Source: Paraburkholderia sp. HP33-1 (lineage in GTDB: Bacteria > Pseudomonadota > Gammaproteobacteria > Burkholderiales > Burkholderiaceae). From it: 64,000 nt of DNA. Of this stretch, positions 1-17,678 are shown one piece after another. How positions within the stretch are numbered: the first letter of the stretch is position 1; each line of letters opens with the position of its first letter. The stretch is taken from the NCBI RefSeq assembly GCF_021390595.1, contig NZ_JAJEJR010000003.1:62001-126000 (forward strand). Reading direction: 5' to 3'. Below the pieces are notes generated by a model that searched no databases, was not told where the DNA came from, and saw nothing but the letters and a program-made list of their open reading frames with translations. The position numbers were made by a program, and so were the translations under genes.

Positions 1-1359
1 GTCGCGCGGCTGTCGTGGAATCTGCTCGAGCGTTGCCAGCGCTTTATCGGCGCGCTGCCGATCGACAACCCGGCGTTGATCGAGACGCTGCAAGCGGAGC
101 TCGGCCGCGAGGCGCTCTGCGAGGCGGTAGCGCTGTGGTTCGAGGATTTCGCGCGTCAGACCGGCCGCTATGCGGTGGCGATGTTCGCGCTCGGCGAGCC
201 CGACTACGCCCGCGCCTGGATCGGGACCGCCGCGTTTCACGCGGCCAAGAGTCACGTGGCGCGCCTCGGCGAGTGCTACATGAGCCCGAAATGGCTGTCG
301 CTGCAACTCGAACGCGCAGCCGTCGATGCAGGGCGCGCCGGCCGTCTCTGGAACCTGCTGCACGCGCCGCGCGAGCATGGCACCGAAAGCGGGCTGCTCG
401 CGGCGGGCGTCGCGCTGATCCGCGAGTTCGGCGTCAACGGTGTGAGCCTCGTGGCCGACAACGTGCTGATCGGCCCTGGCAAAGACACGACGACCTGGCA
501 GATCGGCGAACGGGTCCATGTGCTGCGAGGCAGCGACGTGTTTGCGCTCGACGACGAAGCCGCCCAGGCCTGGCGGTCGATCACCTTCGACGCGCCATGC
601 ACGGCGATCGCCAGCCGTGGCGACGCGCAGGCGGCCAGCCGGCGCCGCGCGCTGATCGCCGACTTCAGCCGGCTCGGCCTCGTGAGCCTGCGCTGGAAGG
701 GCGGCGGAGAAATCCACGCCCGTCAGCAGGCGACGTCGACGCCGGTGTCCCGTGCGCCCCTGATCTCAATCGACGGTGCGCGTCTCGCGGCCGGCCGCGC
801 GAGCGGTGCCCAGTTGCTGCCGATGCCCGCCGGGCGCTTCGCCGAAGCGGGGCTCGAGATGATCTGGGCCAACATTGGCCTCGAGAACGCGCGTGAGGAC
901 GCCCAAGGCGCACTCCAGCGCGGCCAATGGAAGGTGCTCGAATACGCGCTGCAACGGATGATGCAGACCGCCTGCATGGTCACGCTCGGGGCGCACGGTG
1001 TGACGCCGCAGTCGACGATGGAAGAAGCGACGCTCGACGCGATCCGGCTGCTGCCGCTCGATGCGGTGCTGATCGACGGCATCCGCGAACTCGAACAGTG
1101 TTCGATCGGATCGGCACGCGATGCGCAGCGCTACGTCGCGCTGGCCGATGAGCTCGCGCAGCGTCTGCGCAACCTCGGCGGCGACCCGCAATTTCCAGCG
1201 AGCTTCGATACGGCGTCGGGTTGGCGCGGCACGATCCACGCCGCCTACGACTGGATCAACCTCGGCGCGCATCTGCACGCGCGCTTCCCGCAGACCGCTC
1301 ACGGCGGACGCGGTACCGCCGAGGAAGCGAGAGATCTGCTCGCTTCGTCGAGCACCTGA
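1..1359 (+). CDS. Unrecognised protein, 5' end outside window
   Basis: The frame is open from base 1 and ends with TGA at 1357-1359, so at least 452 residues are present and the true start lies upstream; internal TTG/ATG codons need not be used. I do not recognise a family. The protein is soluble-looking, Ala/Arg/Leu rich, with no evident signal peptide or membrane segment. The next gene starts 15 bases after its stop, preceded by GGGGAC, so it is almost certainly the upstream member of the acyl-AMP ligase / PEP-synthase-like / exporter operon. A biosynthetic role follows from position only. The strong third-position GC pattern supports real coding, and the long reading frames on the other strand here are shadows. 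Confidence 0.75.
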   Translation, partial: VARLSWNLLERCQRFIGALPIDNPALIETLQAELGREALCEAVALWFEDFARQTGRYAVAMFALGEPDYARAWIGTAAFHAAKSHVARLGECYMSPKWLSLQLERAAVDAGRAGRLWNLLHAPREHGTESGLLAAGVALIREFGVNGVSLVADNVLIGPGKDTTTWQIGERVHVLRGSDVFALDDEAAQAWRSITFDAPCTAIASRGDAQAASRRRALIADFSRLGLVSLRWKGGGEIHARQQATSTPVSRAPLISIDGARLAAGRASGAQLLPMPAGRFAEAGLEMIWANIGLENAREDAQGALQRGQWKVLEYALQRMMQTACMVTLGAHGVTPQSTMEEATLDAIRLLPLDAVLIDGIRELEQCSIGSARDAQRYVALADELAQRLRNLGGDPQFPASFDTASGWRGTIHAAYDWINLGAHLHARFPQTAHGGRGTAEEARDLLASSST

Positions 1360-1374
1360 CCAACGGGGACCGCA

Positions 1375-4152
1375 ATGAAGTTAGACACCATTACGCCTGC
1401 ACGCGGGCAATTCGAAGCGGCAGGAAGCTGCGCGCCACACGAGGTCCACCCCGCGAGCGGCAGCGCCGCCCCGGCAGCATCGTCACGCGTGATCCTGACC
1501 GCGGCGAGTCCGGCCGACACCATCGAGCGGCTCGCCGGCAATAAGGGCAGATCGCTCCATCGGCTCGCGAACCTCGGCGTAGCGGTGCCGCACTGGGCGA
1601 TCCTCGGTACCGACTGCTTCGCGGACTTCCGGCGCGATGCGGGCCTCGATCAAACCATCGCCGCGCTGCTGCGCGACTTCACGCCCGCGAATGCCGCCGC
1701 GATCGCGAGCACGATCCGCGAGGCCGTGCTGACTTGTGACATGAGCGCCGCGTTGCGCGCCGACATCGCACGCGCGTACGACAGCATCGGAGACGGGCCG
1801 CTCGCGGTGCGCTCGTCCGGTGTCGAAGAAGACAGCGCGAGCTTCTCGTTTGCAGGCCAGTTCGACACGTTCCTCGACGTCCGCGGTCTCGACTCGACGC
1901 TCGAACATGTGCGCCGGTGCTGGGCTTCTGCCTGGTCCGAGCGCTCGCTACGCTACCGGCATCAGCACGGACTCGATATCGCCGGCGCCGGCATGGCCGT
2001 GATCCTGCAGCGCCTCGTTCAGGCGGACACGAGCGGCGTCGTGTTCACGATCAATCCGGCGAACGGCAACCGCGACGAGCTCGTGTTGAGCGCCGTCTAC
2101 GGGCTCGGCGAAGGACTCGTGTCGGGCGCAGTCGACGCAGACACGATCACCGTGGACCGCCACAGCGGACAGCATAAGCAGGTAGTGATCGGCGAAAAGC
2201 GCGAGCGTCATAACGGCCGCCACATCAGCGAAGTTCCGGCCGAGCTGCGCGATATAGCAGCCCTGTCCAACGACGAGATAGAGCGCGTCGTTGCGACGGC
2301 CCGCACGCTCGAAACCACGCTTGGCGAGCCGCTCGATATCGAATGGTGTATTGCGCAGAACCAGTTGTGGATCCTGCAAGCGCGCCCGGTGACCACACCG
2401 GTCGCAGCGGACCCCACGCGGACGGGCGAATTCCAGCTGTGGGACAACTCCAACATCGTCGAGAACTATCCTGGCGTGACGACGCAGCTGACGTTCACAT
2501 TCGCGCAGCACGTCTATGCGCAGGTGTTCCGTGAGTTCTGCCGGCTGCTCGCAATTCCGCACAAACAGCGCCGTGAGATGGATGGCTTCCTCGGCTCGAC
2601 GCTCGCGTTCCTGAACGGGCGCGTGTACTACAACCTGCTGCACTGGTACAAGCTTTCCGGGCTCGCGCCGTTCCAGGATCTCGGGCGCAAGATGATGGAA
2701 GTCCAGATGGGCGTCGGCGAGCCGCTCGATCTTGCGAGCTTCGCCGCGCTGATCACGCCGTACAAGGCCGGCTCGCGCGCCGCACTCGCCTGCATCCGGG
2801 CATTGAGCGGCGCGAAGTTCACGTGGCACTTCGCGCGTCTCGAGCGCAACGTCGAGCAATTTCGCGCGTTCTTTTATCCGGTCTACGACGAGTTCGACGC
2901 GCTCGACTATCGCTCGCTTCCCGCCGACGCCGTCTATGCGCACTACCGTCGCTTCGAACAGGCGCTGCTCGCGCGCTGGGGCATGATGATCGTGCTCGAA
3001 TCGGCGATCGGTCTCAGTTACGGCGTCGTGCGGCGCCTGATCAAGCGGTGGATGCCCGATGCGCCTGACTGGCTCGAAGTGGCGGTCGTCGGGGGCATGG
3101 ACGACATCGAGTCCATCGAGCCGGTCCGCAGGCTGGCCGCGATTGCGCAAGCCGTGCGGTTGAAACCGCAGATCGAAACGCTGATCCGCAACACGCCGTC
3201 GGCCGAAGCGTATGCGGCGCTGCGCGGATGCGGCGCGCCTGAGATCGTCGCCGCCATCGAGCGCTACCTCGCCGATTTCGCCTACCGCAGCAAGAACGAA
3301 CTGAAGCTCGAAGAGCCCGATTTGCGCGAAGACCCGGGCGTGCTGTTCGATATGTTGAAGGTCTCGCTGGCGCATGGTGCCGCGTCGATCGATCGCACCG
3401 CCATCGAAGCGCGCATCGACGCCTTGTTGCGTGAGCGGCTCAATCCGCTGCAGCGCTGGATTTTTGCACGCGCGCGCAGCCGCGTGCGCGCCGCCATCCG
3501 GGCGCGTGAGACCGTGCGCTTTTGCCGTTCGCGCGCGTTCGGCGTCGCGCGCCGCATGTTCCGCGCGATCGGCGAGGGTCTCGCCGGCGACGGCGTGCTG
3601 GCGACCGGCCGCGACATCTTCCATCTGCGCCTCGAAGAAATTCGGGGGTGCTTCGAAGGCACCGTCTCTCACCGCGAACTGCGCCCGCTCGTCGAGCAGC
3701 GCAAGCGCGACGATGCGGCCTATCGTGACATGGATGACCTGCCGCCACGCTTCGTCACGCATGGCCCGGTTGCGGCCTGGCTCAGCCAACCCGCGAACCT
3801 CGCCGCGCTCCACGCGGCGCCTGCCCACGCGCCCGGCGCGACGCTGCGCGGCACGCCCTGCTCGCCGGGCTTCGCGGAAGGGCCGGCGAAGGTCGTGCGC
3901 GAGGCCAACGAGTTCGACGGCGGCATCCTCGTCACCTATCGGACCGACCCCGGCTGGGTACCGGTATTCGCGGCGGCGACCGGGCTGCTGATCGAGCGCG
4001 GCAGTCCGTTGACCCATGCCGCGATCGTCGCGCGCGAGATTGGCATTCCGACCGTCGTCCAGATTCCGGGCCTTACCACGCGCGTGCGTTCGGGGATGCA
4101 GCTGAAGGTCGATGGCCATAGCGGCGTGATCGAACTGCCCGAGCCGACCTGA
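1375..4152 (+). CDS. PEP-synthase/PPDK-like phosphotransferase
   Basis: A 925-residue protein with the two ends of the PEP synthase / pyruvate phosphate dikinase / rifampin phosphotransferase architecture. The N-terminal ATP-grasp part has NKGRSLHRLANLGV (about residue 55), AVRSSGVEEDSASFSFAGQ (about 145), GVVFTINP (about 222) and LWILQARPVT (about 330). The C-terminal swivelling phosphohistidine domain has GSPLTHAAIVARE, with the candidate catalytic His near residue 881. The middle (about 350-800) is not a normal PEP-synthase TIM barrel, so a variant that phosphorylates another acceptor is likelier than housekeeping PpsA. ATG at 1375 follows GGGGAC. Its operon partners (desaturase, acyl-AMP ligase, RND pump) suggest activation of a lipid-derived intermediate; this is inference. 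Confidence 0.8.
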   Translation: MKLDTITPARGQFEAAGSCAPHEVHPASGSAAPAASSRVILTAASPADTIERLAGNKGRSLHRLANLGVAVPHWAILGTDCFADFRRDAGLDQTIAALLRDFTPANAAAIASTIREAVLTCDMSAALRADIARAYDSIGDGPLAVRSSGVEEDSASFSFAGQFDTFLDVRGLDSTLEHVRRCWASAWSERSLRYRHQHGLDIAGAGMAVILQRLVQADTSGVVFTINPANGNRDELVLSAVYGLGEGLVSGAVDADTITVDRHSGQHKQVVIGEKRERHNGRHISEVPAELRDIAALSNDEIERVVATARTLETTLGEPLDIEWCIAQNQLWILQARPVTTPVAADPTRTGEFQLWDNSNIVENYPGVTTQLTFTFAQHVYAQVFREFCRLLAIPHKQRREMDGFLGSTLAFLNGRVYYNLLHWYKLSGLAPFQDLGRKMMEVQMGVGEPLDLASFAALITPYKAGSRAALACIRALSGAKFTWHFARLERNVEQFRAFFYPVYDEFDALDYRSLPADAVYAHYRRFEQALLARWGMMIVLESAIGLSYGVVRRLIKRWMPDAPDWLEVAVVGGMDDIESIEPVRRLAAIAQAVRLKPQIETLIRNTPSAEAYAALRGCGAPEIVAAIERYLADFAYRSKNELKLEEPDLREDPGVLFDMLKVSLAHGAASIDRTAIEARIDALLRERLNPLQRWIFARARSRVRAAIRARETVRFCRSRAFGVARRMFRAIGEGLAGDGVLATGRDIFHLRLEEIRGCFEGTVSHRELRPLVEQRKRDDAAYRDMDDLPPRFVTHGPVAAWLSQPANLAALHAAPAHAPGATLRGTPCSPGFAEGPAKVVREANEFDGGILVTYRTDPGWVPVFAAATGLLIERGSPLTHAAIVAREIGIPTVVQIPGLTTRVRSGMQLKVDGHSGVIELPEPT

Positions 4153-4203
4153 AATGAACTGCCTGCCCGTTGACCATTGAAACTGCCCCTGAAGGAAATT
4201 GCC

Positions 4204-5193
4204 ATGTACCGCCTGCTCAACGATCGTCGCGACCTGCCGCATCTGTGGCTTTACGTCCAGTGCGCGTTGCTGTTCATCCCCGCCGCGGGCGTGCTGTATG
4301 GCCTCGGCCACTTTCCGTGGTGGCTGGGCGTTGCGTATGTGCTCGTCTGGAACGCGTTCGGCGACCGCTTCACGATGAGCTACCACTGCACGCTGCATCG
4401 GCGGCTCTTCAGAAAGCAGTACCGGGCATGCCAGATCCTGCTCGACTGGGTGCTGTGCCCGTTCTTCGGTCAGACGCCAGGCACTTTCTATGTCCATCAC
4501 ATGGGCATGCATCACATCGACGACAACCTGCCGCGCGATCTGAGCTCCACGATGCCGTTCCAGCGCGATAGCGTGAGCGGCTTTCTGCACTACTACCTGC
4601 GCTTCGCCGCGCTGGTCCCGCTCGAGCTCACCGTCTATCTGTGGCGCTCGCGCAATACGAAGCTGATCCGGCAACTGCTCGTGGGCGAGGTCGCGTTCTA
4701 CGCAGCGATCACCGCCGCCGCGTACTGGAACCTGCGGGCGACGCTCGTCGTGTTCGTGTTCCCGTTCGTGTTCGTGCGGCTGATGATGATGATCGGCAAC
4801 TGGGTCCAGCACGCGTTCATCGACCCCGATCATCCCGATAACCCGTATACGAGCAGCACCAACACGATCGACTCGCGTTTCAATGCGCGCGTCTTCAACG
4901 CCGGCTATCACATCTATCACCACGTCCGCAAAGGGACGCACTACAGCGAGCTCACGAAGGAATTCGCGGCGAACCTCGAAAAGTACGGCCGCGAGGACGC
5001 GGTCGTTTTCGATCGCATCGACATCGCGCAGATCTGGCTGCTGCTCGTCACGCGCCAGCATCGCAAGCTCGCGACGCATTTCGTGCGCCTGCCGGGCGCG
5101 CCGGCGCGCAACGACGACGAGGTGATCGCACTGCTGCGTCGCCGACTGCAGCCGATCCGCGACTGGACGCCGGCTGCGTCGCTTGATCGCTGA
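4204..5193 (+). CDS. Membrane fatty-acid desaturase family protein
   Basis: A 329-residue di-iron membrane desaturase/hydroxylase. It shows the His boxes expected of the family: HCTLH (about residue 62), HHMGMHH (about 99-105) and YHIYHH...GTHYSE (about 238-251), between hydrophobic segments near residues 15-55, 160-180 and 185-200. ATG 4204 is chosen over the upstream TTG 4177 because AAGGAA sits about seven bases before it. The family uses O2 and electrons to desaturate or hydroxylate acyl chains at the inner membrane. Placed between the PEP-synthase-like protein and an acyl-AMP ligase, it most likely modifies the acyl chain of the operon's product. Position and stereochemistry of the reaction cannot be read. 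Confidence 0.88.
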   Translation: MYRLLNDRRDLPHLWLYVQCALLFIPAAGVLYGLGHFPWWLGVAYVLVWNAFGDRFTMSYHCTLHRRLFRKQYRACQILLDWVLCPFFGQTPGTFYVHHMGMHHIDDNLPRDLSSTMPFQRDSVSGFLHYYLRFAALVPLELTVYLWRSRNTKLIRQLLVGEVAFYAAITAAAYWNLRATLVVFVFPFVFVRLMMMIGNWVQHAFIDPDHPDNPYTSSTNTIDSRFNARVFNAGYHIYHHVRKGTHYSELTKEFAANLEKYGREDAVVFDRIDIAQIWLLLVTRQHRKLATHFVRLPGAPARNDDEVIALLRRRLQPIRDWTPAASLDR

Positions 5194-5224
5194 TGCTCAA
5201 TGACATGACCGGGGAGCCGTCAAC

Positions 5225-6895
5225 ATGGACCAGACGCTAGTCGATGCCGTTTCAGCGCTGCCGCGCGGCGACGCTCGAGGCCTTCGCTTTGTCTCCTCGA
5301 ACGGCGACGAGCACTACTATCCTTACGAGGCGCTCGAACGCGAAGCACGCAAGCGTGCGAGGAAGCTCGCGGCACTGGGCCTGAACAAGGGCGAGCGCAT
5401 CGCGCTCGTGATCCTCGACCCGGAAGCGTTCATCCTGAGCTTCCTCGGCGCATCGTTCGCCGGTCTCGTCCCGGTACCGATCTTTCCTCGCGGGAGCCTC
5501 AACTTCAAGACCCGCACGCGCTACGCCGAAACGGTGAGTCACATCGTGCGCTCGGCGGGCGCGCGGATACTACTCACATCGGACTCGGCAAGAGAGACCA
5601 TCGAGGATGTGCTGGCCGTCGACACCGGCCTCGAACGCATCGTGACCGTTGAAGCGCTGGGCGACAGCGAGCCGCCCGCCTGCGATTTGCCCACAGTGCA
5701 TCCCGACGACCTGTGCTTCCTGCAATACACGTCGGGCAGCACGTCGCTGCCGAAAGGCGTGATGGTCACGCATCGCAATCTGGTCGCGAATGCGAGCGCG
5801 TTCCTCGGACCGCGAGGCATCGATCTGCGCAAACAGGATGTCTATGTCAGCTGGCTGCCGCTGCACCACGACATGGGGCTCATCAGCGTGCTCGGCGCGC
5901 TCATCTGCGACTTGCCGAGCGTGCTGCTGGCAACCGAAGCGTTCGTGCGCCGCCCTGGGCTCTGGATGGAGGCGATCACGAAGTACGGCGGCACGATCAG
6001 CTTCGCGCCGAACTTTGCATACGCGCTCGCCGCGCGCCGTACCCGCGACGCCGACCTCGAAGGGCTGGACCTGCGGCGGTTGCGCGTAGCCGGCTGCGGG
6101 GCCGAGCCGATCAACGCGCAAGCGTTGCGCCAGTTCTGCGCGCGCTTCGAGCCGGCCGGCTTTCGCGCCGAAGCGCTGCTGCCGTGCTACGGGATGGCCG
6201 AGGCAACACTCGCGATCACGTTTCACGACCACGGCCAGCCGATCGTCACCGACGTCGTCTATGCGTCGACGCTGGGCCTCGGTCGAGCCATACCGGCCAC
6301 GCGTGACAGCGGATTGCGCTCGATCGAACTGGTCGGCTGCGGCCATCCGTTTCCCGGGCACGAGCTGCGGATCGTCGACGAATCCGGGCAAGCGTTGCCC
6401 GAACGCTGCGTCGGCGAAATCGTCACGCGCGGGCCCAGCATCACCGCGGGCTATTACGGCCTGGCCGACGCGACTGCCGACGCATACCGCGACGGCTGGC
6501 TCCAGACCGGCGACCTCGGCTACCTCGTCGGCGACCAGCTTTATATCTGCGGCCGCAGCAAGGATCTGATCGTCATTCACGGCTCGAACCACTATCCGCA
6601 GGACATCGAATGGGCGGTGGCCGAGTTGCCGAGCGTGCAAAGCCGCGGTGTCATCGCGTTCAGCGTGATGCGCGACGGCGACGAGACGCTCGTTGTCTGT
6701 GCCGAGGGCAAGCCGGCCGAAGCCGCGACGCTGCGCCGCGCGATCGCCCAGAAGGTCGCCGAAAGCGCGGGCCTGCAGGTCGGTCACGTGGCGATCGTGC
6801 AGTCGGGCAGCTTGCCGCGGACTTCGAGCGGCAAAGTGCAGCGCCGCCGGACCAAGGCACAGTTCGAAGCCGGCGAGCTGGAGGAACACTCGTGA
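5225..6895 (+). CDS. Fatty acyl-AMP ligase (FAAL-type)
   Basis: A 556-residue ANL-superfamily adenylating enzyme. It carries the P-loop-like core LQYTSGSTSLPKGVMVTH (about residue 165), CYGMAEATLAI (about 322), a TGDLGY motif (about 427) and the C-terminal LPRTSSGKVQRRRTK with the catalytic-type Lys near 539. The overall style (HPDDLCFLQYTSGST, WLPLHHDMGLI) matches fatty acyl-AMP ligases that load acyl-adenylates onto carrier proteins rather than CoA ligases. No carrier protein gene is visible inside the window, so one would have to lie upstream. ATG 5225 follows GGGGAG. The stop overlaps the next gene's GTG in a GTGA junction, which indicates translational coupling to the exporter. Confidence 0.88.
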   Translation: MDQTLVDAVSALPRGDARGLRFVSSNGDEHYYPYEALEREARKRARKLAALGLNKGERIALVILDPEAFILSFLGASFAGLVPVPIFPRGSLNFKTRTRYAETVSHIVRSAGARILLTSDSARETIEDVLAVDTGLERIVTVEALGDSEPPACDLPTVHPDDLCFLQYTSGSTSLPKGVMVTHRNLVANASAFLGPRGIDLRKQDVYVSWLPLHHDMGLISVLGALICDLPSVLLATEAFVRRPGLWMEAITKYGGTISFAPNFAYALAARRTRDADLEGLDLRRLRVAGCGAEPINAQALRQFCARFEPAGFRAEALLPCYGMAEATLAITFHDHGQPIVTDVVYASTLGLGRAIPATRDSGLRSIELVGCGHPFPGHELRIVDESGQALPERCVGEIVTRGPSITAGYYGLADATADAYRDGWLQTGDLGYLVGDQLYICGRSKDLIVIHGSNHYPQDIEWAVAELPSVQSRGVIAFSVMRDGDETLVVCAEGKPAEAATLRRAIAQKVAESAGLQVGHVAIVQSGSLPRTSSGKVQRRRTKAQFEAGELEEHS

Positions 6896-8007
6896 GCCGC
6901 ATGCGCTGGCACGGGATCATGCTGACGGTGTCAGGCGCGCTCGCGCTCGCCGCCTGTCACGCGAAACAAGCCGAGGTGACGCTGCCGCCCCAGGTTATCG
7001 CCGTGGCTGTGCATCGGGACAGCAGGCCCGTTCTCGCGACGCTGCCGGGCGAAGTCAACGCACGCTATGCAACGCCGCTGTCGTTTCGCATCGCAGGCAA
7101 ACTGATCGTGCGGAACGTGCATCTCGGCGATACGGTCAAGGCCGGCGACGTGATCGCGCGGCTCGATCCCGACGACGCGCAACGCAGCCTCGCGAGCGCG
7201 CAGGCCCAATTGATGGCGGCGCAGCATCGGCTCACCTTCGCCGAGCAGCAACTCGATCGCGACCGGGCACAGGCGCAGGAACAGCTGATCGCGACGACAC
7301 AGCTCGAGCAAACCCAGGACGCGTACGTGGCGGCCGTTGCGCAACGCGATCAGGCAGTGGAGCAGTTCGCGCTGCTGAAAAATCAGGTGCAATACACGGT
7401 CCTCACGGCAGACCATGCTGGCGTCGTGACCAGCGAAGACGCCGACACCGGGCAGAACCTCGCGGCGGGACAACCGGTCTACCATCTCGCCTGGTCCGGC
7501 GAGGTCGATATCCTCTGCGACGTGCCAGAGAGCCTGCTGAAGGCGCTCGCGGTCGGCAGCGCAGCCAGCATCTCACTGCCGGCCGTCACCGGCCGGCGTT
7601 ACGCGGCGCGCGTGCGGGAACTATCGCCGGCCGCGGATCCCGGCAGCCGCACCTATCGCGCGAGACTGACGCTCGATGCGCCGGGTCCCGAGGTCCACCT
7701 CGGCATGACGGCCAACGTCACCTTCGCCGAGGCGGCGGGCGAGGCGCAAGCGGACGATCCGATCACGCTGCCCGCCACCGCGCTCTTTCACGAGGGCAAC
7801 ACGCCGGCCGTCTGGGTCGTTCGGCCCGGCGACCATGCGCTGGAGCTGCGCCGGGTCCAGGTCGGCCGCTACGACGACCGCACGATCTCCGTCTCGCGAG
7901 GCCTCACGGACGGCGAGCGCGTCGTGCTGCAAGGCGTGCATACCGTCAGCGCCGGCGAAACCGTGCGCGCGGTCGCGCCGTTGCATCCCGAGGACTTCGC
8001 ATCATGA
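6892..8007 (+). CDS. RND efflux periplasmic adaptor (HlyD/MFP), lipoprotein
   Basis: A 371-residue membrane-fusion protein. GTG 6892 overlaps the previous stop and follows GAGG; it gives a lipoprotein signal with lipobox LAAC near residues 17-20. Lipoyl/barrel-sandwich halves flank a Gln-rich helical hairpin (about residues 95-160: LASAQAQLMAAQHRLTFAEQ). The C-terminal half has the usual beta-barrel and membrane-proximal strands (LPATALF, VWVVRPG). It should bridge the RND pump and outer-membrane channel encoded next. The stop and the pump's ATG overlap in ATGA, so the three components are co-translated. The likely cargo is the product of the upstream acyl-modifying enzymes. Confidence 0.9.
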   Translation: MSRMRWHGIMLTVSGALALAACHAKQAEVTLPPQVIAVAVHRDSRPVLATLPGEVNARYATPLSFRIAGKLIVRNVHLGDTVKAGDVIARLDPDDAQRSLASAQAQLMAAQHRLTFAEQQLDRDRAQAQEQLIATTQLEQTQDAYVAAVAQRDQAVEQFALLKNQVQYTVLTADHAGVVTSEDADTGQNLAAGQPVYHLAWSGEVDILCDVPESLLKALAVGSAASISLPAVTGRRYAARVRELSPAADPGSRTYRARLTLDAPGPEVHLGMTANVTFAEAAGEAQADDPITLPATALFHEGNTPAVWVVRPGDHALELRRVQVGRYDDRTISVSRGLTDGERVVLQGVHTVSAGETVRAVAPLHPEDFAS

Positions 8008-11000
8008 AGGCACTGTTCAGCCAGGGGTCCGGCGGAGCCGGTGGACCGCGACGGCCGGCGGCGGACGACACTGGCCGTTTCAACCTGTCCGCGTGGGCGA
8101 TCCGCAATCAGGCGGTCGTCATTTTCGCCGTCGTGCTCGCGACGTTGTTCGGCGTGCTCGCCTATTCCCGGCTCGGACAATCCGAGGACCCGCCGTTCAC
8201 GTTCCGCGCGATGGTGATCCGCACCTTCTGGCCCGGCGCGACCGCACGCCAGGTCGAGGAGCAGGTGACCGACCGGATTGGCCGCAAGCTCCAGGAAACG
8301 CCCCATCTCGACTATCTGCGCAGCTACTCGCGTCCCGGCGAATCGCTGATCGTCTTCACGATGAAAGACTCTGCGCCGGTGAACGAGGTGCGCGAGACGT
8401 GGTACCAGGTGCGCAAGAAAGTGGCCGACATCGCCGATACGCTTCCGCCCGGCGCGCGGGGGCCGTACTTCGACGACGAGTTCGGCGACGTCTACACGAA
8501 CATCTATACGCTCGCGGGCGACGGGTTCTCGCCGGCCCAATTGCACGACTACGCCGACGAACTGCGCAGCGTGCTGCTGCGCGTGCCCGGTGTCGCGAAG
8601 GTCGACTATTTCGGCGACCCCGACGAGCACATCACGATCGAGATTCCCAACGCGCAATTGACGCGGCTCAGTATCACGCCGCAACAGCTCGCGCAGGCGA
8701 TCAATGCGCAAAACGCGGTCACGCCGAGCGGCACGCTGACCACCGCGTTCGATCGCGTGTATGTGCGTCCGAGCGGCCAGTTCACCGATCTGAAGGCGAT
8801 GGCCGACACGCTGATCGATATCAACCATCGACTCGTTCGTCTCGGTGACATCGCGACGATCAGGCGCGGCTACGACGATCCGCCGGTCTCGCAGGTTCGC
8901 ACCGACGGCGGCGCCGTGCTCGCCATCGGCATCACGATGCAGGCTGGCGGCGATGTGATTCAGCTTGGCAAGCGGCTCGATGCGCAGGCCGCCGAATTGC
9001 GTGCGCGTCTGCCGGCGGGACTCAAGCTCGTCGAGGTGTCGAGCATGCCGCACGCGGTCTCGCATTCGGTCAACGCTTTTCTGGAGGCCGCCGCCGAAGC
9101 CATTGCGATCGTGCTGGCCGTAAGCCTCATCTCACTGGGCTGGCGCGCCGGCGTGGTGGTGGCGATCTCGATCCCGGTCGTGCTTGCGATCACCGCGCTC
9201 GGCATGGATGGGTTCGACATCGGCTTGCACAAGATCTCGCTCGGCACGCTCGTCCTCGCGCTGGGCCTGCTCGTCGATGATGCGATCATCGCGGTCGAGA
9301 TGATGGCCGTGAAGCTCGAACAGGGATGGTGCCGCGCAAGGGCCGCGGCGTTCGCCTACAGCAGCACAGCGTTTCCGATGCTGACGGGGACCCTTGTTAC
9401 GGTGGCGGGATTTCTGCCCATCGCGCTCGCAAAATCGGCCACCGGCGAATACACGCGCTCGATCTTTCAGGTATCCGCGATTGCGCTGATCGCCTCGTGG
9501 TTCGCGGCAGTCGTGCTGATTCCGTTGCTCGGCTATCACCTGCTGCCCCATCGCAAGCACACCGCACGCGGGCCTATGCGCCACGCGGCTCTCAAGAACC
9601 GCTGGCACGACGACACGCAGACGGGCCCGGCCCCGGCGACGGCGCTGCCCGTCACCCGCTTTCATAGCTGCCTGCGCGAGTGCATCGCGTGGTGCCTGAA
9701 GCGGCGTCTCGTCGTGCTCGGCGTCACGGCTGCGCTGTTCGTTGCCGCGCTGGCCGGCTTTGCGCTCGTGCCGCAACAGTTCTTCCCGAGCTCCGAGCGG
9801 CCCGAACTGCTCGTCGACATGCGGCTGCCCGAAGGTGCGTCGTTCGAAGCGACGCTGCGCGAAGCCGCGCGCCTCGAAAAAACGCTGGCCGGCCGGCCCG
9901 AGATCGATCATCTGGTCGACTTCGTCGGCGCGGGCGCGCCCCGGTTCTATCTGCCGCTCGACGTCCAGCTGACCCAACCCAACTTCGCGCAGTTCGTGAT
10001 CACCGCAAAGTCCGTCGACGATCGTGCGACGCTCGAGCGCTGGCTCGCGAGCACACTGCAAAAGAGCTTTCCCGCCGTGCGTACGCGCGTTTCGCCGTTG
10101 GAGACAGGGCCTTCGGTGGGCTATCCGGTGCAGTTTCGCGTCAGCGGAAGCGACCTCGGCACCGTGCGGGAGATCGCGGAACAAGTCGCGGCGACGATGA
10201 AAGCCGATGTCCGCACGACGGGCGTCCATTTCGACTGGGACGAACCCGGCGAACGCTCGGTGCGCTTCGAGATCGACCAGCAGAAGGCGCGCGAACTCGG
10301 CGTCACGTCGGAAGACGTGGGGAGCTTCCTCGCGATGACGCTGTCGGGCTATACGTTCACGCAATTCCGGGTTCGCGACAGGTTGATCAGCGTCGACCTG
10401 CGCGCGCCCCAGCGCGAGCGGGTCGATCCCGCCGGGATCGTGAACCTCGCGATGCCGACGCCGAACGGCCCGGTTCCGCTCGGCACGCTCGGACACCTGA
10501 ACAACGAGCTCGAATACGCGGTGATCTGGGACCGCGACCGTCTTCCGACGATCACGGTCCAGTCCGACGTGCGCGGCAATGCGTTGGACCTCGACGTGAT
10601 CCAGGCGATCGATCGGACGCTCGCGCCGCTACGCGCGTCGTTGCCGATCGGCTACCGGATCGAGACCGGCGGTGCGGGCGAGATCAGCGGCCAGGCGCAG
10701 GCGTCGGTGATCGCGCAGCTTCCGCTGATGCTCGTGGTGGTGCTCACGCTGCTGATGATGCAACTGCGCAGTTTCGTGCGCGTGCTGATGGTCGTGCTCA
10801 CCGCGCCGCTCGGGCTCATCGGCGTGGTCGGCGCGCTGCTGCTGTTCGGCAAGCCGTTCGGCTTCGTGGCGATGCTCGGCGTCATTGCGATGTCCGGCAT
10901 CATCATGCGCAACTCGGTCATTCTCGTCGACCAGATCGAACGCGATATCGCCGCGGGCCACGCGCGCTTCGACGCGATCATTGGCGCAACGCTCCGGCGC

Positions 11001-11228
11001 TTCCGCCCGATCATGCTGACCGCCGCGGCAGCCGTGCTCGCCCTGATCCCCCTGCTGCGTTCGGCCTTCTTCGGACCGATGGCGACCGCCCTGATGGGCG
11101 GCATTACGGGTGCCACCGTGTTGACGCTGTTCTTTTTGCCCGCGCTATACGCGACCGCGTTCAAGGTACGGCATGGCGAACGCGGTGGGCAAACGGCGGC
11201 CGCGACAGTCGCATATACGTGGAGTTGA
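8004..11228 (+). CDS. RND family inner-membrane efflux pump
   Basis: A 1074-residue pump of the AcrB/MexB superfamily. It has the first TM near residues 32-54, the periplasmic porter loop, the TM4 acidic motif LLVDDAIIAVE (about 420-430) and GVIAMSGIIMRNSVILVDQIE in the second half. The length is standard for HAE/HME-type RND proteins. The first nine residues plus a Gly-rich stretch before TM1 form a longer cytoplasmic N-terminus than usual. ATG 8004 overlaps the adaptor stop (ATGA). It sits in a complete adaptor-pump-channel set directly behind biosynthetic genes, which favours dedicated export of a lipidic metabolite over general drug efflux. Confidence 0.93.
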   Translation: MKALFSQGSGGAGGPRRPAADDTGRFNLSAWAIRNQAVVIFAVVLATLFGVLAYSRLGQSEDPPFTFRAMVIRTFWPGATARQVEEQVTDRIGRKLQETPHLDYLRSYSRPGESLIVFTMKDSAPVNEVRETWYQVRKKVADIADTLPPGARGPYFDDEFGDVYTNIYTLAGDGFSPAQLHDYADELRSVLLRVPGVAKVDYFGDPDEHITIEIPNAQLTRLSITPQQLAQAINAQNAVTPSGTLTTAFDRVYVRPSGQFTDLKAMADTLIDINHRLVRLGDIATIRRGYDDPPVSQVRTDGGAVLAIGITMQAGGDVIQLGKRLDAQAAELRARLPAGLKLVEVSSMPHAVSHSVNAFLEAAAEAIAIVLAVSLISLGWRAGVVVAISIPVVLAITALGMDGFDIGLHKISLGTLVLALGLLVDDAIIAVEMMAVKLEQGWCRARAAAFAYSSTAFPMLTGTLVTVAGFLPIALAKSATGEYTRSIFQVSAIALIASWFAAVVLIPLLGYHLLPHRKHTARGPMRHAALKNRWHDDTQTGPAPATALPVTRFHSCLRECIAWCLKRRLVVLGVTAALFVAALAGFALVPQQFFPSSERPELLVDMRLPEGASFEATLREAARLEKTLAGRPEIDHLVDFVGAGAPRFYLPLDVQLTQPNFAQFVITAKSVDDRATLERWLASTLQKSFPAVRTRVSPLETGPSVGYPVQFRVSGSDLGTVREIAEQVAATMKADVRTTGVHFDWDEPGERSVRFEIDQQKARELGVTSEDVGSFLAMTLSGYTFTQFRVRDRLISVDLRAPQRERVDPAGIVNLAMPTPNGPVPLGTLGHLNNELEYAVIWDRDRLPTITVQSDVRGNALDLDVIQAIDRTLAPLRASLPIGYRIETGGAGEISGQAQASVIAQLPLMLVVVLTLLMMQLRSFVRVLMVVLTAPLGLIGVVGALLLFGKPFGFVAMLGVIAMSGIIMRNSVILVDQIERDIAAGHARFDAIIGATLRRFRPIMLTAAAAVLALIPLLRSAFFGPMATALMGGITGATVLTLFFLPALYATAFKVRHGERGGQTAAATVAYTWS

Positions 11229-11230
11229 TC

Positions 11231-12742
11231 GTGGGTAGAGACTGCAACCCCGTTGTCGGGCCGGCGTCGGCGATCGATCGTTGGCGCGCGGCGTGCGGTG
11301 CCGCGGCGACGATCGCATTTGGCGCATGCACGTTCGGCCCCAGCGGTGAGCCGCCTGCGATGCCCGTTCCCGTCCATTACGGCGTCGAGCCGCAGCCCGC
11401 GCAAACGGTCGAGGCGCTCGGTGTCGCGCAGCGCTTCACCATCGGCGTGCAACCTGTGCCCGAATGGTGGCGGCTGTTCGGATCGACGACGTTGAATGCC
11501 CTCGTCGAAGAGGGCTTGCGCAACAGCCCGACGCTCGCCGCCGCCGACAAACGCCTCGCCGCCGCGCGCGAACAACTGCGGGGCCAAATTCACAGCTCGC
11601 TGCTGCCGACGGTCGATCTGGTCGGGCAGACGTCGCGCGGGCGCGATCTCGGCATTCCGGTCCCCGGCGGCCCGAATACGCTGCTTTACAACGAGTTTAT
11701 CGGCGTCGTCCAGGCGCAATATACGTTCGACCTGTTCGGTGCGGTGCGCCAGGCCAACGCGGCCCGGTCCGCGCGTGTCGACATCGAAGCGTATCAACGC
11801 GAAGCCGCGCGGCGCGCACTGGCCACCAACATCGTCACGGCAACGATGGAGGCGGCGATGTTGCGCGCCGAGATCGACGCGACCGAGCGCATGGTCGCGC
11901 TTGCGGGCGATCAGGCTCACGATACCGAACGGCATTACGAACTCGGATCGCTGACGCACGGCGAGGTGTTGGCCGCGCGGCAAAGCATCGCCACGCTCGA
12001 GGTCAGCGTGGCCGAGTTGCGGCAGCGGCTGGCGGTGACAAGACATGCGCTCGCGGTGCTGCTTGGCCGCACGCCCGACGCGGCGCCGCCCGAGCCCGAT
12101 CTCGCGAGCCTGCACTTGCCGCAGGACCTGCCCGTCGTGTTGCCATCCGACCTGTTGCGCGCGCGGCCCGATATCGAGGCAGCCGAGGCGGCGCTGAAAG
12201 CCGCCGCAGCCGACGTCGGCGTCGCAACGGCCCAGCTCTTTCCGAGCCTGACGCTGAACGCATCGATGGGACAAGGCGGGTTCAGCTGGCCGCTCGCGCT
12301 GTCGGGCGCCGGCGCGATCTGGAGCATCGGCGCGACCTTGTCGCAAGCGCTTTTTCATGGCGGCGCGCTCGTCGCACAGCGGCGCGCGGCAATCGACGCC
12401 TACGAGGCGGCCGTGTTCGAGTACAAGCAGACTGTGCTGGCCGCGTTCGAGAACGTCGCGGACACGCTCGCGTCGCTCGAACACGACGCGCAGGCACTCG
12501 AAGCCGCGAGCGGTGCCACTCATGCTGCACGCGAGGCGTTCGACGAAGCCACGTCACGCCACCGGCTCGGCGCGCTACCGGCTTCATCCGCGCGCGGCGG
12601 CGAGCAGCAGTACGAAACTGCGAGGCTCGAAGAAATCCGCCTGATCGGCAGGCGTCTGACCGATACGGCGACACTGTTTCAGGCGATGGGCCAGTTGCCG
12701 GCGGGTAGCAACGCGACATCTGACCACCTGGCCCGCAAGTGA
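11231..12742 (+). CDS. RND outer-membrane channel, NodT/OprM-type lipoprotein
   Basis: A 503-residue outer-membrane factor with two repeated OEP domains (about residues 80-270 and 290-490). Family features include WWRLFGSTTLNALVEEGL near residue 76, RPDIEAAEAALKAAAADVGVA near 305 and a final helix-rich stretch. GTG 11231 is used because GGAG ends six bases before it; this yields a lipoprotein-type N-terminus whose Cys (context AFGAC) is near residue 34, an imperfect lipobox. It completes the tripartite pump. Its TGA ends at 12742, exactly abutting the 3' end of a gene on the other strand, with no room for a separate terminator. Confidence 0.9.
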   Translation: MGRDCNPVVGPASAIDRWRAACGAAATIAFGACTFGPSGEPPAMPVPVHYGVEPQPAQTVEALGVAQRFTIGVQPVPEWWRLFGSTTLNALVEEGLRNSPTLAAADKRLAAAREQLRGQIHSSLLPTVDLVGQTSRGRDLGIPVPGGPNTLLYNEFIGVVQAQYTFDLFGAVRQANAARSARVDIEAYQREAARRALATNIVTATMEAAMLRAEIDATERMVALAGDQAHDTERHYELGSLTHGEVLAARQSIATLEVSVAELRQRLAVTRHALAVLLGRTPDAAPPEPDLASLHLPQDLPVVLPSDLLRARPDIEAAEAALKAAAADVGVATAQLFPSLTLNASMGQGGFSWPLALSGAGAIWSIGATLSQALFHGGALVAQRRAAIDAYEAAVFEYKQTVLAAFENVADTLASLEHDAQALEAASGATHAAREAFDEATSRHRLGALPASSARGGEQQYETARLEEIRLIGRRLTDTATLFQAMGQLPAGSNATSDHLARK

Positions 12743-13531
12743 TCAGCCCGCTGGTCCCCGGGGAACGCCGACAAGGTAAGTGAGACCGAGCGGCGATCCG
12801 TGCACCGGCTGCGTGCCGATGTCCCATTCGAAGCTTTGTTCGTCCGGGATACTCGCGACCATCTCGCGCAATTCGTCGGGATTGTAGATGCGCAGCATCG
12901 AAACAATGCCGTCGAACAGACAGAGCAGCGGGATCACCGGGAGGACATAAGTGAGCCCGAGTCGCGACCAGCGAAACGGCCGGATCAGCGGAGTCAGCGC
13001 GAGCATCATCAGCGGCATCAGCAGAATGAACAGGATTCCGAGCAGGCGATGGTCGGCGCCCTCGACGATGACGATCGCACGGCGCTTCGCCACCGCATCG
13101 GCGAGGATCGCCCGCGCATCGTGCGGCCGGAAATGGTGGAAAGCGTTGAACATCGTGCGCACACCGTCGAATCCCGACGGCACATCCATCGCATCCACCG
13201 GTTCGCTCACATAGGTGACGCGCGCGGTCGACGCGGCAGATACCCGCTCGTGCGCGGCGCGATTGGGATAGAAGTCCGTCAACTGCACCGTCACGCATCC
13301 GGACTGCGCGAGCAACGGTGCAAGCGTCTGCCACGGGCCGCCGCCGCCCGAGCAGAGATCGACGATCCGGTCGCTGCCGACCCGTCGCATCGCCTCGCGC
13401 AGCTTGACTGAGATGACGTTGAATCCCTTGTGGGCATTGGCCAGAAAGTGCAGCCAGTCGGTAGCGCCGTCACGGATGGCCCGGGGGCACCACGGCTCGT
13501 CTTCGATTTCGAGCAGATGCAGGCGTCGCAT
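12743..13531 (-). CDS. SAM-dependent methyltransferase with C-terminal membrane segments
   Basis: About 262 residues from ATG 13531 (MRRLHLLEIED...). A longer frame reaches 13582 but the shorter start looks like the family N-terminus. The Rossmann motif I is IVDLCSGGGGPW (about residue 56), followed by LTDFYPN and FDGVRTMFNAFHHF. A hydrophobic stretch (about residues 160-220: LLGILFILLMPLMMLALTPL, then VLPVIPLLCLF) suggests one or two membrane segments after the catalytic domain, unusual for a soluble class I methyltransferase. It converges with the exporter operon. It may decorate the same lipid product, but the opposite strand makes that only a guess. Confidence 0.75.
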   Translation of the reverse strand: MRRLHLLEIEDEPWCPRAIRDGATDWLHFLANAHKGFNVISVKLREAMRRVGSDRIVDLCSGGGGPWQTLAPLLAQSGCVTVQLTDFYPNRAAHERVSAASTARVTYVSEPVDAMDVPSGFDGVRTMFNAFHHFRPHDARAILADAVAKRRAIVIVEGADHRLLGILFILLMPLMMLALTPLIRPFRWSRLGLTYVLPVIPLLCLFDGIVSMLRIYNPDELREMVASIPDEQSFEWDIGTQPVHGSPLGLTYLVGVPRGPAG

Positions 13532-13672
13532 GGTCACGCGGGCAACCGAGCTAACTGAATACCGGCATTTTCCATGACGCACCCTCGATCAGCATTTGTC
13601 AGCGGAAACTTTTTACCGAAGTTAAACGAGTTGAGGTGTGGGATTTTTAACGATCAGTTCGCCCCGTAAGCC

Positions 13673-13728
13673 GTCACTGAAAGTTAGCAATGAAAATTCG
13701 CGGTAAAGATTGTCAGTGAAAGTAAGCA
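13673..13728. repeat. Two 17-bp direct repeats
   Basis: GTCACTGAAAGTTAGCA (13673-13689) and GTCAGTGAAAGTAAGCA (13712-13728) match at 15 of 17 bases. A weaker relative starts at 13598 (GTCAGCGGAAACTTTTTACC). Multiple short terminal repeats of this look occur at the ends of IS21-type elements, but no transposase is nearby. They could also be operator repeats for the PAP2 gene at 13801. Confidence 0.5.
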
Positions 13729-13778
13729 TCGCAAAATGCGGCGTATCCAATACGCTATGCTAACGGCATTTTGCGATG
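13727..13778. repeat. Nested inverted repeat upstream of PAP2 gene
   Basis: The outer arms CATCGCAAAATGC (13727-13739) and GCATTTTGCGATG (13766-13778) are perfect 13-bp complements. An inner perfect stem GCGTAT/ATACGC (13741-13746, 13750-13755) has a 3-base loop. The structure ends 22 bases before the ATG at 13801, so it could act in the leader RNA or be a transposon-end remnant. It lacks the T-run of a terminator. Confidence 0.6.
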
Positions 13779-13800
13779 ACCCCAATCTTCTTACAAAATA

Positions 13801-14493
13801 ATGAACGGCTTTGATTCGTCTATCGAAACATATCTGTCCAACCTTCACTTCGGTCATTTCGCGACCCAATCCATACAGGCCATCGCCGATCTGTACAGCT
13901 TCAAAGGTCTCGTACTCATTCCCGTGCTGTGGTGGATGTGGTTTCAGCAAGACCAACGCCGCGAATGGCGCAGAGAGATGGTTCTCGCGACGCTTCTCAG
14001 CGGCATCGTGGCGCTTTTTGTCGGCAGACTGCTGACTCACTGGTTGCCGTTCAGGGTACGCCCCATCTATAGCCCTGAATTGCATCTGCACTTTGCGGAT
14101 GGCGCGATCAAGGACGCACTGCTGACAAGCTGGAGTTCCTTCCCGAGCGATCACGCGATGCTATGGATGGCGGTCGCCACCGGCATCTTCCTCGTGTCGC
14201 GCGGTATCGGTGTGCTGGCGATTCTCTATACCGCGCTGTTCATTTGCCTTCCGCGCGCCTATCTCGGCTTTCACTACCCAACCGATTTGCTGGTCGGTGC
14301 TGCCGTGGGAATGGTGATTGCCGTGGTCATGACGCGAGATGCGATCCGCGTGCGCTACGCGACTCCGATGCTGCGATGGATCGAACGCTGGCCGGGGCCG
14401 TCAGCGATGCTGGCCTTTATTCTGTGCCTCGAACTCGTCACGCAGTTCGACGAACTGCGCAAGGTGGCGAGCGGCGTGTTCAAACATCTCTGA
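13801..14493 (+). CDS. PAP2-superfamily membrane phosphatase
   Basis: A 230-residue membrane protein of the PAP2/phosphatidic acid phosphatase superfamily. The motifs are an R-P pair (LPFRVRP, about residue 84), SSFPSDHAMLWM (PSxH-type, about 115-121) and PRAYLGFHYPTD with the catalytic His near residue 158, among about five hydrophobic segments. The first residue of the third motif is Pro instead of the usual Ser. Such enzymes dephosphorylate lipid phosphates or undecaprenyl pyrophosphate on the periplasmic face. There is no obvious ribosome site before the ATG. It stands alone behind a hairpin-rich leader. Confidence 0.85.
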   Translation: MNGFDSSIETYLSNLHFGHFATQSIQAIADLYSFKGLVLIPVLWWMWFQQDQRREWRREMVLATLLSGIVALFVGRLLTHWLPFRVRPIYSPELHLHFADGAIKDALLTSWSSFPSDHAMLWMAVATGIFLVSRGIGVLAILYTALFICLPRAYLGFHYPTDLLVGAAVGMVIAVVMTRDAIRVRYATPMLRWIERWPGPSAMLAFILCLELVTQFDELRKVASGVFKHL

Positions 14494-14703
14494 ACGGCTC
14501 TGGCATAGACGACACGCATCCTCCGTGGCACGCACGAGGCTATGGCCTCTGCATTCCTGCTTCTGCATTTCGCACAGCCGGAGCGGGACGGCTTTCGAAA
14601 CGCGCGTCCTTCCGGCCGCGCTTGAAGAGACTTTCGTACACGACAAATCCGAGCTTTACGATCACCGACCCCGTCACAACTTCGATAAAAACCAACGCCG
14701 ATT

Positions 14704-15063
14704 TTGCGACCCGCCTCATTTCTGACGAACGCGCGACATGTGCCGTTCGCGCAGCTAGTTGCCTACGACAGCGCATGCTTTTCGGCCACGCGTTCCGAGT
14801 TCCTTGCGGGCTGGATCGCGCAACCGCATGCGCTGGCTCTGGCTCTGGCGGATGTCCGCAACGATCAGATCAGAGGGTACGGCGTGCTGCGCCGTTGCAG
14901 GACAGGCTACAAGATAGGTCCGCTCTTTGCCGACGACGCGCAGAATGCCAGCCATCTGTTCGACGGACTGGTCGCGAGCGTCGCAGGTGAAGTCATTGCG
15001 TTCGACGTCCCGGAGGTCAACGCTGTTGCGGTAGCACTCGCTGAACGCCACGGTATGTTAAGT
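14704..15063 (+). pseudogene. Truncated GNAT-type acetyltransferase C-terminal part
   Basis: About 120 residues resemble the C-terminal domain found after GNAT folds: IRGYGVLRRCRTGYKIGPLF, then ADDAQNASHLFDGLV, IAFDVPEVN and LAERHGM. The N-terminal catalytic half is missing (only a TTG and no good start), and the 3' end is cut exactly where an IS5-like end begins at 15064. The bases upstream (14494-14703) hold no convincing gene. I read it as a remnant damaged by insertion and rearrangement. The missing C-terminal tail is not seen beside the second IS copy, so the event was not a simple insertion. Confidence 0.7.
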
Positions 15064-15258
15064 AGTCGGGTTTGAACAATTCGCTTTGGTCGGCCGTCGT
15101 CCTCACTGCTGGAAGACCACAGTGATTGGGCGGTTGAGCAAAGCGATCAGAGCAAGGGCGTAAAAGAGCCTCAGTTTTCCGAGGATCATCCGCAGGTTAT
15201 GGCCGGCGCCGCACGGCGCTGCGTGTATCGCATCACCGAGCGCACCTTTGAGCCATGC
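15064..15258 (-). mobile_element. Truncated IS5-like element end (transposase C-terminus)
   Basis: The stretch begins with the same terminal sequence as the element at 22694 (AGTCGGGTTTGAACAATTCG versus AGTCGTGTCTGAATTATTCG) and is nearly identical to it to about 15258. On the minus strand it encodes the C-terminal end of an IS5-family transposase (WLKGALGDAIHA, GAGHNLRMILGKLR). The similarity then stops, leaving only this end. 15259-15336 is unassigned. Both copies lie in the same orientation about 7.6 kb apart. Confidence 0.8.
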
Positions 15259-15336
15259 CACGCTTACTGTATCGCCGCGATTGAGTCGACAGTACCCTCC
15301 GGACTGCCCCAACGATCGACAATCGTTTGCCCACAC

Positions 15337-17556: not shown

Positions 17557-17678
17557 CACATGTCTCCATCTATATAAGAAATCTGCAAACTTAGAAATCG
17601 CGATCAGCCACCATTGGTGGCTAACCGAACGTCTGGATTCAATCGACCAAATCAAAATGGATCTCGAAAAGCACGGCA

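Follow-up and report, generated by a model that had tools for sequence, protein, structure and literature searches.

A salinipostin-type gene core apparently without its butyrolactone synthase, with its own RND pump, in Paraburkholderia

The 64,000-nucleotide stretch of Paraburkholderia sp. HP33-1 DNA analysed here (the window) is C3:62001-126000 of a 7.35-Mb genome, with Paraburkholderia proteins as the nearest named relatives; the 32 kb to its left were also analysed, and negative coordinates denote positions left of the window. Window positions 1 to 12742 are the right part of a 22.6-kb block of about 15 genes, extending from about -8994 to 13582 (Table 1). The block encodes a phosphoenolpyruvate (PEP)-synthase-like enzyme, a nucleotidyltransferase (NTase)-domain protein, a fatty acyl-AMP ligase (FAAL), an acyl carrier protein (ACP), a short-chain dehydrogenase/reductase (SDR), and a UbiA-like membrane protein, together with a resistance-nodulation-division (RND) pump. 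Judged by gene content and homology, it is a salinipostin-type core without the butyrolactone synthase, residing in Proteobacteria and more closely related to the Salinispora salinipostin (spt) cluster than to the antifungal afc loci of Burkholderia with which an initial annotation had compared it. The genes that this annotation named in the window, and the GTGA (FAAL/adaptor) and ATGA (adaptor/pump) overlaps, are confirmed by a check of gene calls, junctions, and domains. Operon-like spacing and these two four-base overlaps tie the pump to the FAAL, and the SDR, UbiA-like, ACP, and Coq4-like genes lie tightly spaced to the left of the NTase gene on the same strand. The unit proposed earlier is real and was drawn too small: its left end lies approximately 9 kb before window position 1, and on the right it takes in the convergent methyltransferase gene at 12743-13582. 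Its "unknown protein" is the NTase protein, whose 5' end lies outside the window. The upstream region, where the initial annotation had advised looking for carrier protein genes, does hold a carrier protein and is the rest of the same block, not an unrelated operon.

Table 1. Predicted genes of the block, from left to right, in window coordinates
Product	Position	Strand	Features
Thymidylate-kinase-like (TMK-like) protein	-8994..-8251	-	divergent set
TsrM-like B12/radical-SAM + tryptophanase fusion	-8241..-5215	-	divergent set
GHMP-like kinase	-5165..-4056	-	start chosen after 369-aa relatives
Coq4-like protein	-3461..-2691	+	Pfam 61 bits; HDxxH...E pattern; PDB 6e12
ACP	-2673..-2344	+	GLDSL motif
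UbiA-like membrane protein	-2347..-1430	+	conserved RxxDxxxD
SDR, thioester-reductase-related	-1403..-321	+	NAD_binding_4, 150 bits
NTase-domain protein, 553 aa	-302..1359 (L004:15698-17359)	+	active-site pattern EGSIAEGFGN..SDVDF
PEP-synthase-like enzyme, 925 aa	1375..4152	+	NF004881 subfamily; RedH/PigC-like full-length collinearity; invariant His881
Membrane fatty-acid desaturase, 329 aa	4204..5193	+	boxes HCTLH, HHMGMHH, HIYHH read from sequence
FAAL, 556 aa	5225..6895	+	NCBIfam and PDB matches
RND periplasmic adaptor	6892..8007	+	GTG start in GTGA overlapping FAAL stop
RND pump, AcrB-type, 1074 aa	8004..11228	+	ATG start in ATGA overlap with adaptor
NodT-type outer-membrane channel, 503 aa	11231..12742	+	
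Methyltransferase-like membrane protein, 279 aa	12743..13582	-	convergent; right edge of block

Judged by where the DNA alignment with other carriers ends, the TMK-like gene and the methyltransferase gene bound the unit, which measures about 22.6 kb. In this alignment, for which matches of >150 bases were counted and flank matches or those of >3 kb are reported, the left end of the long match falls at -8940 (G1154) and -8943 (G1148) and the right end at 13579-13658 (L010-L013 and G1154); the alignment continues to the locus end in L008 and L009, and flank pieces beyond the left edge, from about -10100, are shared again in G1148 and G065. The block is collinear in seven Paraburkholderia loci, with DNA identities of 88-93% across carriers and 89-93% in the six other named loci; L008, one of these six, is filed under Burkholderia sp. 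H160. Third codon positions hold a share of 0.50-0.80 of the differences in 29 of 30 gene comparisons (versus L013 and L009), the exception being ubiA versus L009 (0.38), and by this measure the 15 genes are under protein-level constraint, with that one comparison excepted. The collinearity and the predominance of third-position differences show that the system is more than a chance assembly.

Of 144 genus genomes, 7 carry the block as judged by its NTase gene; this set overlaps with the named loci, so that these genomes and the seven named or own loci are not independent. Two of the 299 genomes in an even draw of the family carry the PEP-synthase-like gene, both from the same genus as the window, and of 398 genomes drawn evenly from the phylum, only the own genome has the GHMP-like gene. 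The cluster is discrete and patchily distributed and has probably spread horizontally. Plasmid records gave a single distant match (36% identity) at E <= 1e-100, the own locus (L004) contains no tRNA genes, and a scan between the divergent operons found no promoter or terminator. nifH scores above its cut-off in 34 of the 144 genus genomes and in three of the seven carriers (G1057, G1150, and G1154), and a link to nitrogen-fixing symbiosis is not claimed. To the right of the block, the minus strand of the window at 15337-17682 holds a 781-aa frame with a lipoprotein-type stretch (LLLLSGC) close to its start.

The PEP-synthase-like protein contains PPDK_N (residues 52-342) and, near its C terminus, the PEP-utilising mobile (His) domain (residues 848-917 of 925). 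In a PEP synthase, the His domain is followed by a C-terminal PEP/pyruvate-binding barrel; none is present in the Pfam listing of this protein. Its middle region, which the initial annotation had called non-standard, belongs to a described subfamily, as the protein scores 1365.9 bits against NF004881 (PRK06241.2-2; cut-off of 883). The models of RedH and PigC match over the full length in one stretch at 384 and 336 bits, below their cut-offs of 1350 and 1300, respectively, and the rifamycin phosphotransferase (Rph) model aligns in two stretches. The nearest solved chains are the 5fbs/5hv1 group, which is deposited as phosphoenolpyruvate synthase and which we take to be rifampin phosphotransferase. 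His881 of the C-terminal swivelling domain is invariant in 23 of 23 aligned sequences. Because the His domain is C-terminal and because of these matches, the protein is assigned an Rph/PigC architecture and is, on these profile data, no PEP synthase. Its relatives in Methylobacter sp. BlB1 and in four Salinispora loci are 57% and 41-42% identical, respectively.

The FAAL is the sole adenylating enzyme among 16 proteins scanned with Pfam and NCBIfam. Its best NCBIfam match is fatty acyl-AMP ligase (515 bits, below the cut-off of 600), its C-terminal domain is DIP2-like, and its best PDB match is 3pbk (Fatty Acyl-Adenylate Ligase). A single frame of 1101-1382 aa encodes both FAAL and NTase in 27 loci; 25 of these are Nocardia loci in the range L050-L087, and the others are L041 and L076. 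Residues 255-335 or so of the NTase protein (L004:15698-17359) resemble a PqqD-like winged helix by eye. In the UbiA-like protein, R80, D83, and D87 are invariant, D91 is nearly so, and R209 and K210 are shared across the two UbiA groups described below. A Pfam scan of the Paraburkholderia protein itself gave no UbiA match, and its spt and L104 relatives score 31.2 and 36.3, respectively, around the cut-off of 34.2; the window-type and spt proteins are homologous by hhalign (probability of 96.9, E of 1.7e-10). The GHMP assignment is based on weak family matches and on Pfam GHMP_kinases_C in some relatives, and the methyltransferase-like protein has a 51% identical homologue in the Methylobacter cluster.

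The radical-SAM and B12 halves of the fusion protein align with TsrM (PDB 6wte), a tryptophan 2-C-methyltransferase that, unlike the present protein, is not fused to a tryptophanase. R69, E273, and Y308, which have mechanistic roles in TsrM, and the CxxxCxxC cysteines are kept, as counted on the 6wte alignment; the score against TIGR04428 (TsrM) is 250.5 bits, below the cut-off of 500. The lyase half exceeds the cut-off of the tryptophanase subfamily model NF009709 (641 bits against 285), scores below the equivalog tryptophanase models TIGR02617 and NF053783, and has tyrosine phenol-lyases as best PDB matches. It carries Leu at the tyrosine phenol-lyase Arg381 position and His at the Phe448 position, which is the tryptophanase type. 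The predicted route of the fusion is tryptophan to 2-methyltryptophan to 2-methylindole. A single match spans the whole fusion in the own genome (L004), L008, L009 (G1148), and G065, whereas in L010-L013 and G1154 the best match covers half the length, with two separate frames called in L013; the gene is apparently fused in some Paraburkholderia (L004, L008, and L009) and split in others (L010-L013). In a protein search with words from the first half only, 1 of 10 relatives was fused (P0193, from P. monticola). Among the titles listed in a literature search that left subscription papers mostly outside, none dealt with a 2-methylindole synthase or with this Paraburkholderia cluster.

We take the salinipostin cluster to be the nine-gene spt operon, with spt9 as the AfsA gene (gamma-butyrolactone synthase). 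Salinispora locus L070 contains nine genes, for the PEP-synthase-like enzyme, FAAL, NTase, ACP, SDR, a nucleoside diphosphate kinase (NDK), UbiA, a luciferase-like protein, and AfsA, and the AfsA matches of all four Salinispora genomes fall in that single locus gene. The Salinispora loci are identified as spt because of this gene content, the operon as described above, the available part of PMC8609351, in which spt is an experimentally characterised Salinispora cluster, and the title of a paper on the salinipostin gamma-butyrolactone cluster that is cited in reference lists. Six genes of the window's cluster have spt homologues; besides the PEP-synthase-like gene, these are the genes for FAAL (33-34% identical in the four Salinispora loci), NTase (36-37%), and SDR (43-44%), with ACP and UbiA-like recognised at the profile level. 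All six occur together in 7/7 Paraburkholderia loci. Compared with spt, whose relatives are actinobacterial, whose product is a bicyclic phosphotriester, and whose product class includes cyclophostin and the cyclipostins, the window's cluster lacks AfsA, NDK-like, and luciferase-like genes and has a UbiA of a different group, whereas it adds the desaturase, RND pump, Coq4-like, GHMP-like, TMK-like, methyltransferase, and TsrM-like/tryptophanase genes. NDK-like and luciferase-like genes are found in 0/7 Paraburkholderia loci, the sole NDK match in the own genome being a 146-aa frame on C1, and AfsA has no match in 8/8 genomes (the seven carriers and Methylobacter) with the model that matches 4/4 Salinispora genomes. 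Because this defining gene was tested for and not found, the cluster is not classed as a member of spt.

The cluster of Methylobacter sp. BlB1 (L014) belongs to the same PEP-synthase-like clade as that of the window and shares the PEP-synthase-like, FAAL, NTase, ACP, SDR, UbiA-like, GHMP-like, TMK-like, and methyltransferase genes. It differs in having no desaturase, RND, Coq4-like, or fusion gene within 19 kb and in carrying LuxE-/LuxC-like acyl reductase genes (14547-17057) and a P450 read from sequence; LeuA/LeuC/LeuD-like frames were also read upstream. No description of this cluster was found among the literature titles listed.

The co-occurrence of these genes was counted in the best 80 of 173 loci obtained with PEP-synthase-like gene patterns plus the own locus, and the partner counts describe that sample. 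No flank was longer than 10 kb, and 14 of the 73 actinobacterial loci were shorter than 19.5 kb, so that an absent partner may lie further out. Partner identities were searched with tblastn at 1e-6; NDK, NTase, AfsA, UbiA, ACP, and SDR were counted with fixed-seed profiles, and FAAL, Coq4, desaturase, RND, and luciferase-like genes in the first census. Two iterated profiles were discarded as contaminated: that of NDK matched all Paraburkholderia loci and 71/73 actinobacterial loci, the same number as SDR, and that of NTase matched at AMP-ligase genes. Of the 81 loci, 76 carry the four-gene core of PEP-synthase-like enzyme, NTase, SDR, and UbiA; two of them, L016 and L022, have weak NTase matches (21 and 25 bits), and 74 are left when these are set aside. 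The 73 actinobacterial loci contain NTase in 71, SDR in 71, UbiA in 69, NDK-like in 63, AfsA in 62, ACP in 53, FAAL in 46, and a luciferase-like gene in 10. AfsA and NDK occur together in 62 of them, AfsA only in none, NDK only in one (L075, truncated), and neither in 10; FAAL and ACP occur together in 46, FAAL only in none, ACP only in 7, and neither in 20. We read this pattern as three putative units, i.e., the core, a fatty-acyl loader (FAAL and ACP), and a butyrolactone branch (AfsA and NDK), the last of which is absent from the window's cluster. The initial annotation had looked to the FAAL, desaturase, and RND genes as partners of the PEP-synthase-like gene; its homologues elsewhere keep NTase and SDR, and FAAL only in part (46/73 actinobacterial loci), and the desaturase and RND pump, present in 7/7 Paraburkholderia loci, are in 0/74 other sample loci within these flanks. 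Together with Coq4-like, these genes are in 0/83 others when distant loci are included. The scattering of homologues that would have spoken against the initial annotation is thus seen with respect to the desaturase and RND pump, in part with respect to FAAL, and not with respect to NTase and SDR.

The core without AfsA is found in 15 loci (7 Paraburkholderia, 1 Methylobacter, 5 Lentzea, 1 Actinophytocola, and 1 Actinomadura), none of which has NDK, and their UbiA proteins are set apart from the rest by a branch with a Shimodaira-Hasegawa-like approximate likelihood ratio test (SH-aLRT) value of 99. The trees contain 81 of 84 loci with matches for UbiA and 85 of 90 loci for the PEP-synthase-like protein, short or interrupted rows having been dropped. 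In the AfsA-less cluster of L015 (Actinophytocola), an adenylosuccinate-synthetase-like gene (12728-13810, read from sequence) adjoins the PEP-synthase-like gene.

The gene content supports the earlier proposal of a compact exported pathway with an activated, probably unsaturated, acyl chain and a phosphoryl-transfer-type enzyme. In the pathway that we consider to have about an even chance of being correct, a salinipostin-type alkyl-phosphoryl core would be moved onto another acceptor, in Paraburkholderia perhaps one derived from 2-methylindole, and exported by the RND pump. The FAAL would adenylate a fatty acid and load it onto the ACP, the membrane desaturase would introduce a double bond, and the SDR would release the chain reductively as an aldehyde or alcohol. 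The chain would then be phosphorylated or activated by the PEP-synthase-like enzyme together with the NTase and two kinases (TMK-like and GHMP-like), and the UbiA-like enzyme, which has the conserved RxxDxxxD motif, would couple it to the acceptor. This acceptor may derive from the fusion protein in Paraburkholderia and may be trimmed by the Coq4-like protein and methyltransferase before the RND/NodT pump exports the product. A more far-reaching version, which we hold to be doubtful, is that the spt-type core forms a portable module independent of the butyrolactone branch and that the Paraburkholderia refit, with the bifunctional TsrM-tryptophanase as dedicated 2-methylindole synthase and the AfsA-independent UbiA group, yields an exported unsaturated alkyl-phosphoryl indole-type metabolite. 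We know of no example of this metabolite class.

Several points weigh against the alkyl-phosphoryl pathway, of which the chemical steps, their order, and the product are all inferred from gene content, homology, motifs, and co-occurrence. Its weakest point is the reaction of the PEP-synthase-like enzyme: the spt context suggests phosphorylation, PigC and RedH are condensing enzymes, and the full-length alignment with these two means that it may catalyse joining instead of phosphorylation. The second concerns the SDR: of the 20 actinobacterial loci that have neither FAAL nor ACP, 18 retain it (and 19 the NTase), so that it need not act on the acyl-ACP of the FAAL. The third lies in the spt core enzymes, whose individual roles are putative. 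The 19 kb covered of the Methylobacter locus show no indole branch. In the PEP-synthase-like tree, the AfsA-less members from Actinobacteria and Proteobacteria do not fall together as they do in the UbiA tree; both are quick trees without bootstrap, and a long-branch warning applies to each. Finally, distant PEP-synthase-like genes (30-37% identity) adjoin UbiA-like genes without NTase or SDR in 8 of 9 loci, with both profiles combined (7 with the fixed-seed profile, L104 being the eighth), and this pair may predate spt. The pair was noted in the gamma- and betaproteobacterial loci L104-L108 and L110-L112; HMG-CoA-reductase-like and AMP-ligase genes were also read from the sequences of L104, L106, and L107, and L106 has a DUF3419 gene in addition.

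The strongest alternative, which we regard as less probable and still a serious contender, is a tambjamine/prodigiosin-like pathway, in which the FAAL, ACP, desaturase, and thioester reductase would make a fatty aldehyde and the PEP-synthase-like enzyme, as a PigC/RedH/TamQ-type ligase (we take TamQ to be the condensing enzyme of this type in the tambjamine pathway), would condense it with 2-methylindole or a derivative as aromatic nucleophile to give a phosphorus-free product. The one-stretch RedH and PigC alignments, compared with two stretches for Rph, and the shared C-terminal mobile His domain are consistent with such a ligase, an indole supplier is predicted within the cluster, and the tam pathway, according to the available part of PMC9594044, has an adenylating-ACP protein, a thioester reductase, and a proposed chain oxidase. 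The RedH and PigC scores are, however, far under the curated cut-offs, while that of NF004881 is exceeded, and the partners are NTase and UbiA, no gene of the 4-methoxy-2,2'-bipyrrole-5-carbaldehyde (MBC) pathway being recognised in the 16 proteins scanned. Furthermore, the nearest relatives of known setting are spt-type clusters with NTase, and salinipostins carry phosphorus, as stated in the available part of PMC6681047.

It is unlikely that the product is a ubiquinone-like alkylated aromatic. For this, UbiA would attach the activated alkyl chain to the ring of an aromatic acceptor, with phosphate serving only as a leaving group, and the molecule would be finished by the Coq4-like protein and methyltransferase. 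The invariant UbiA residues R80, D83, and D87, the Coq4-like protein with its HDxxH...E pattern, and the methyltransferase fit this scheme, and the two extra kinases could make an alkyl diphosphate; yet Coq4 is confined to the Paraburkholderia loci, and UbiA enzymes use an alkyl diphosphate poorly as donor when it is saturated, so that the desaturase would have to make it allylic. An afc-type acylated peptide (AFC-BC11-like) is highly improbable. Both systems have a FAAL, one carrier protein, a membrane desaturase-like protein, and an outer-membrane channel, but the A-domain protein AfcQ, pyridoxal phosphate-dependent decarboxylase AfcP, beta-ketoacyl-ACP synthase (KAS) III-like AfcL/O/R, and citrate synthase AfcS, on which the pathway in the Burkholderia cepacia complex rests according to the available part of PMC12186527, are not among the 16 proteins scanned with Pfam and NCBIfam, and the salinipostin cluster is the better relative.

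Natural clusters that carry the core without butyrolactone genes divide the spt set into three units (core, FAAL with ACP, and AfsA with NDK), and this division indicates which enzymes are candidates for the phosphorus chemistry. To our knowledge, the origin of the phosphotriester in salinipostins and cyclipostins is unsolved. Creamer (2021) reportedly sought spt-like clusters via the AfsA gene, and a search of that kind would miss AfsA-less clusters of the window's class. If the TsrM-tryptophanase fusion has its predicted activities, a single protein leads from tryptophan to 2-methylindole. With a core shared with spt in the absence of the ring gene, its own pump, and a predicted indole-making enzyme, the Paraburkholderia cluster may make an undescribed phosphorus-containing lipid.

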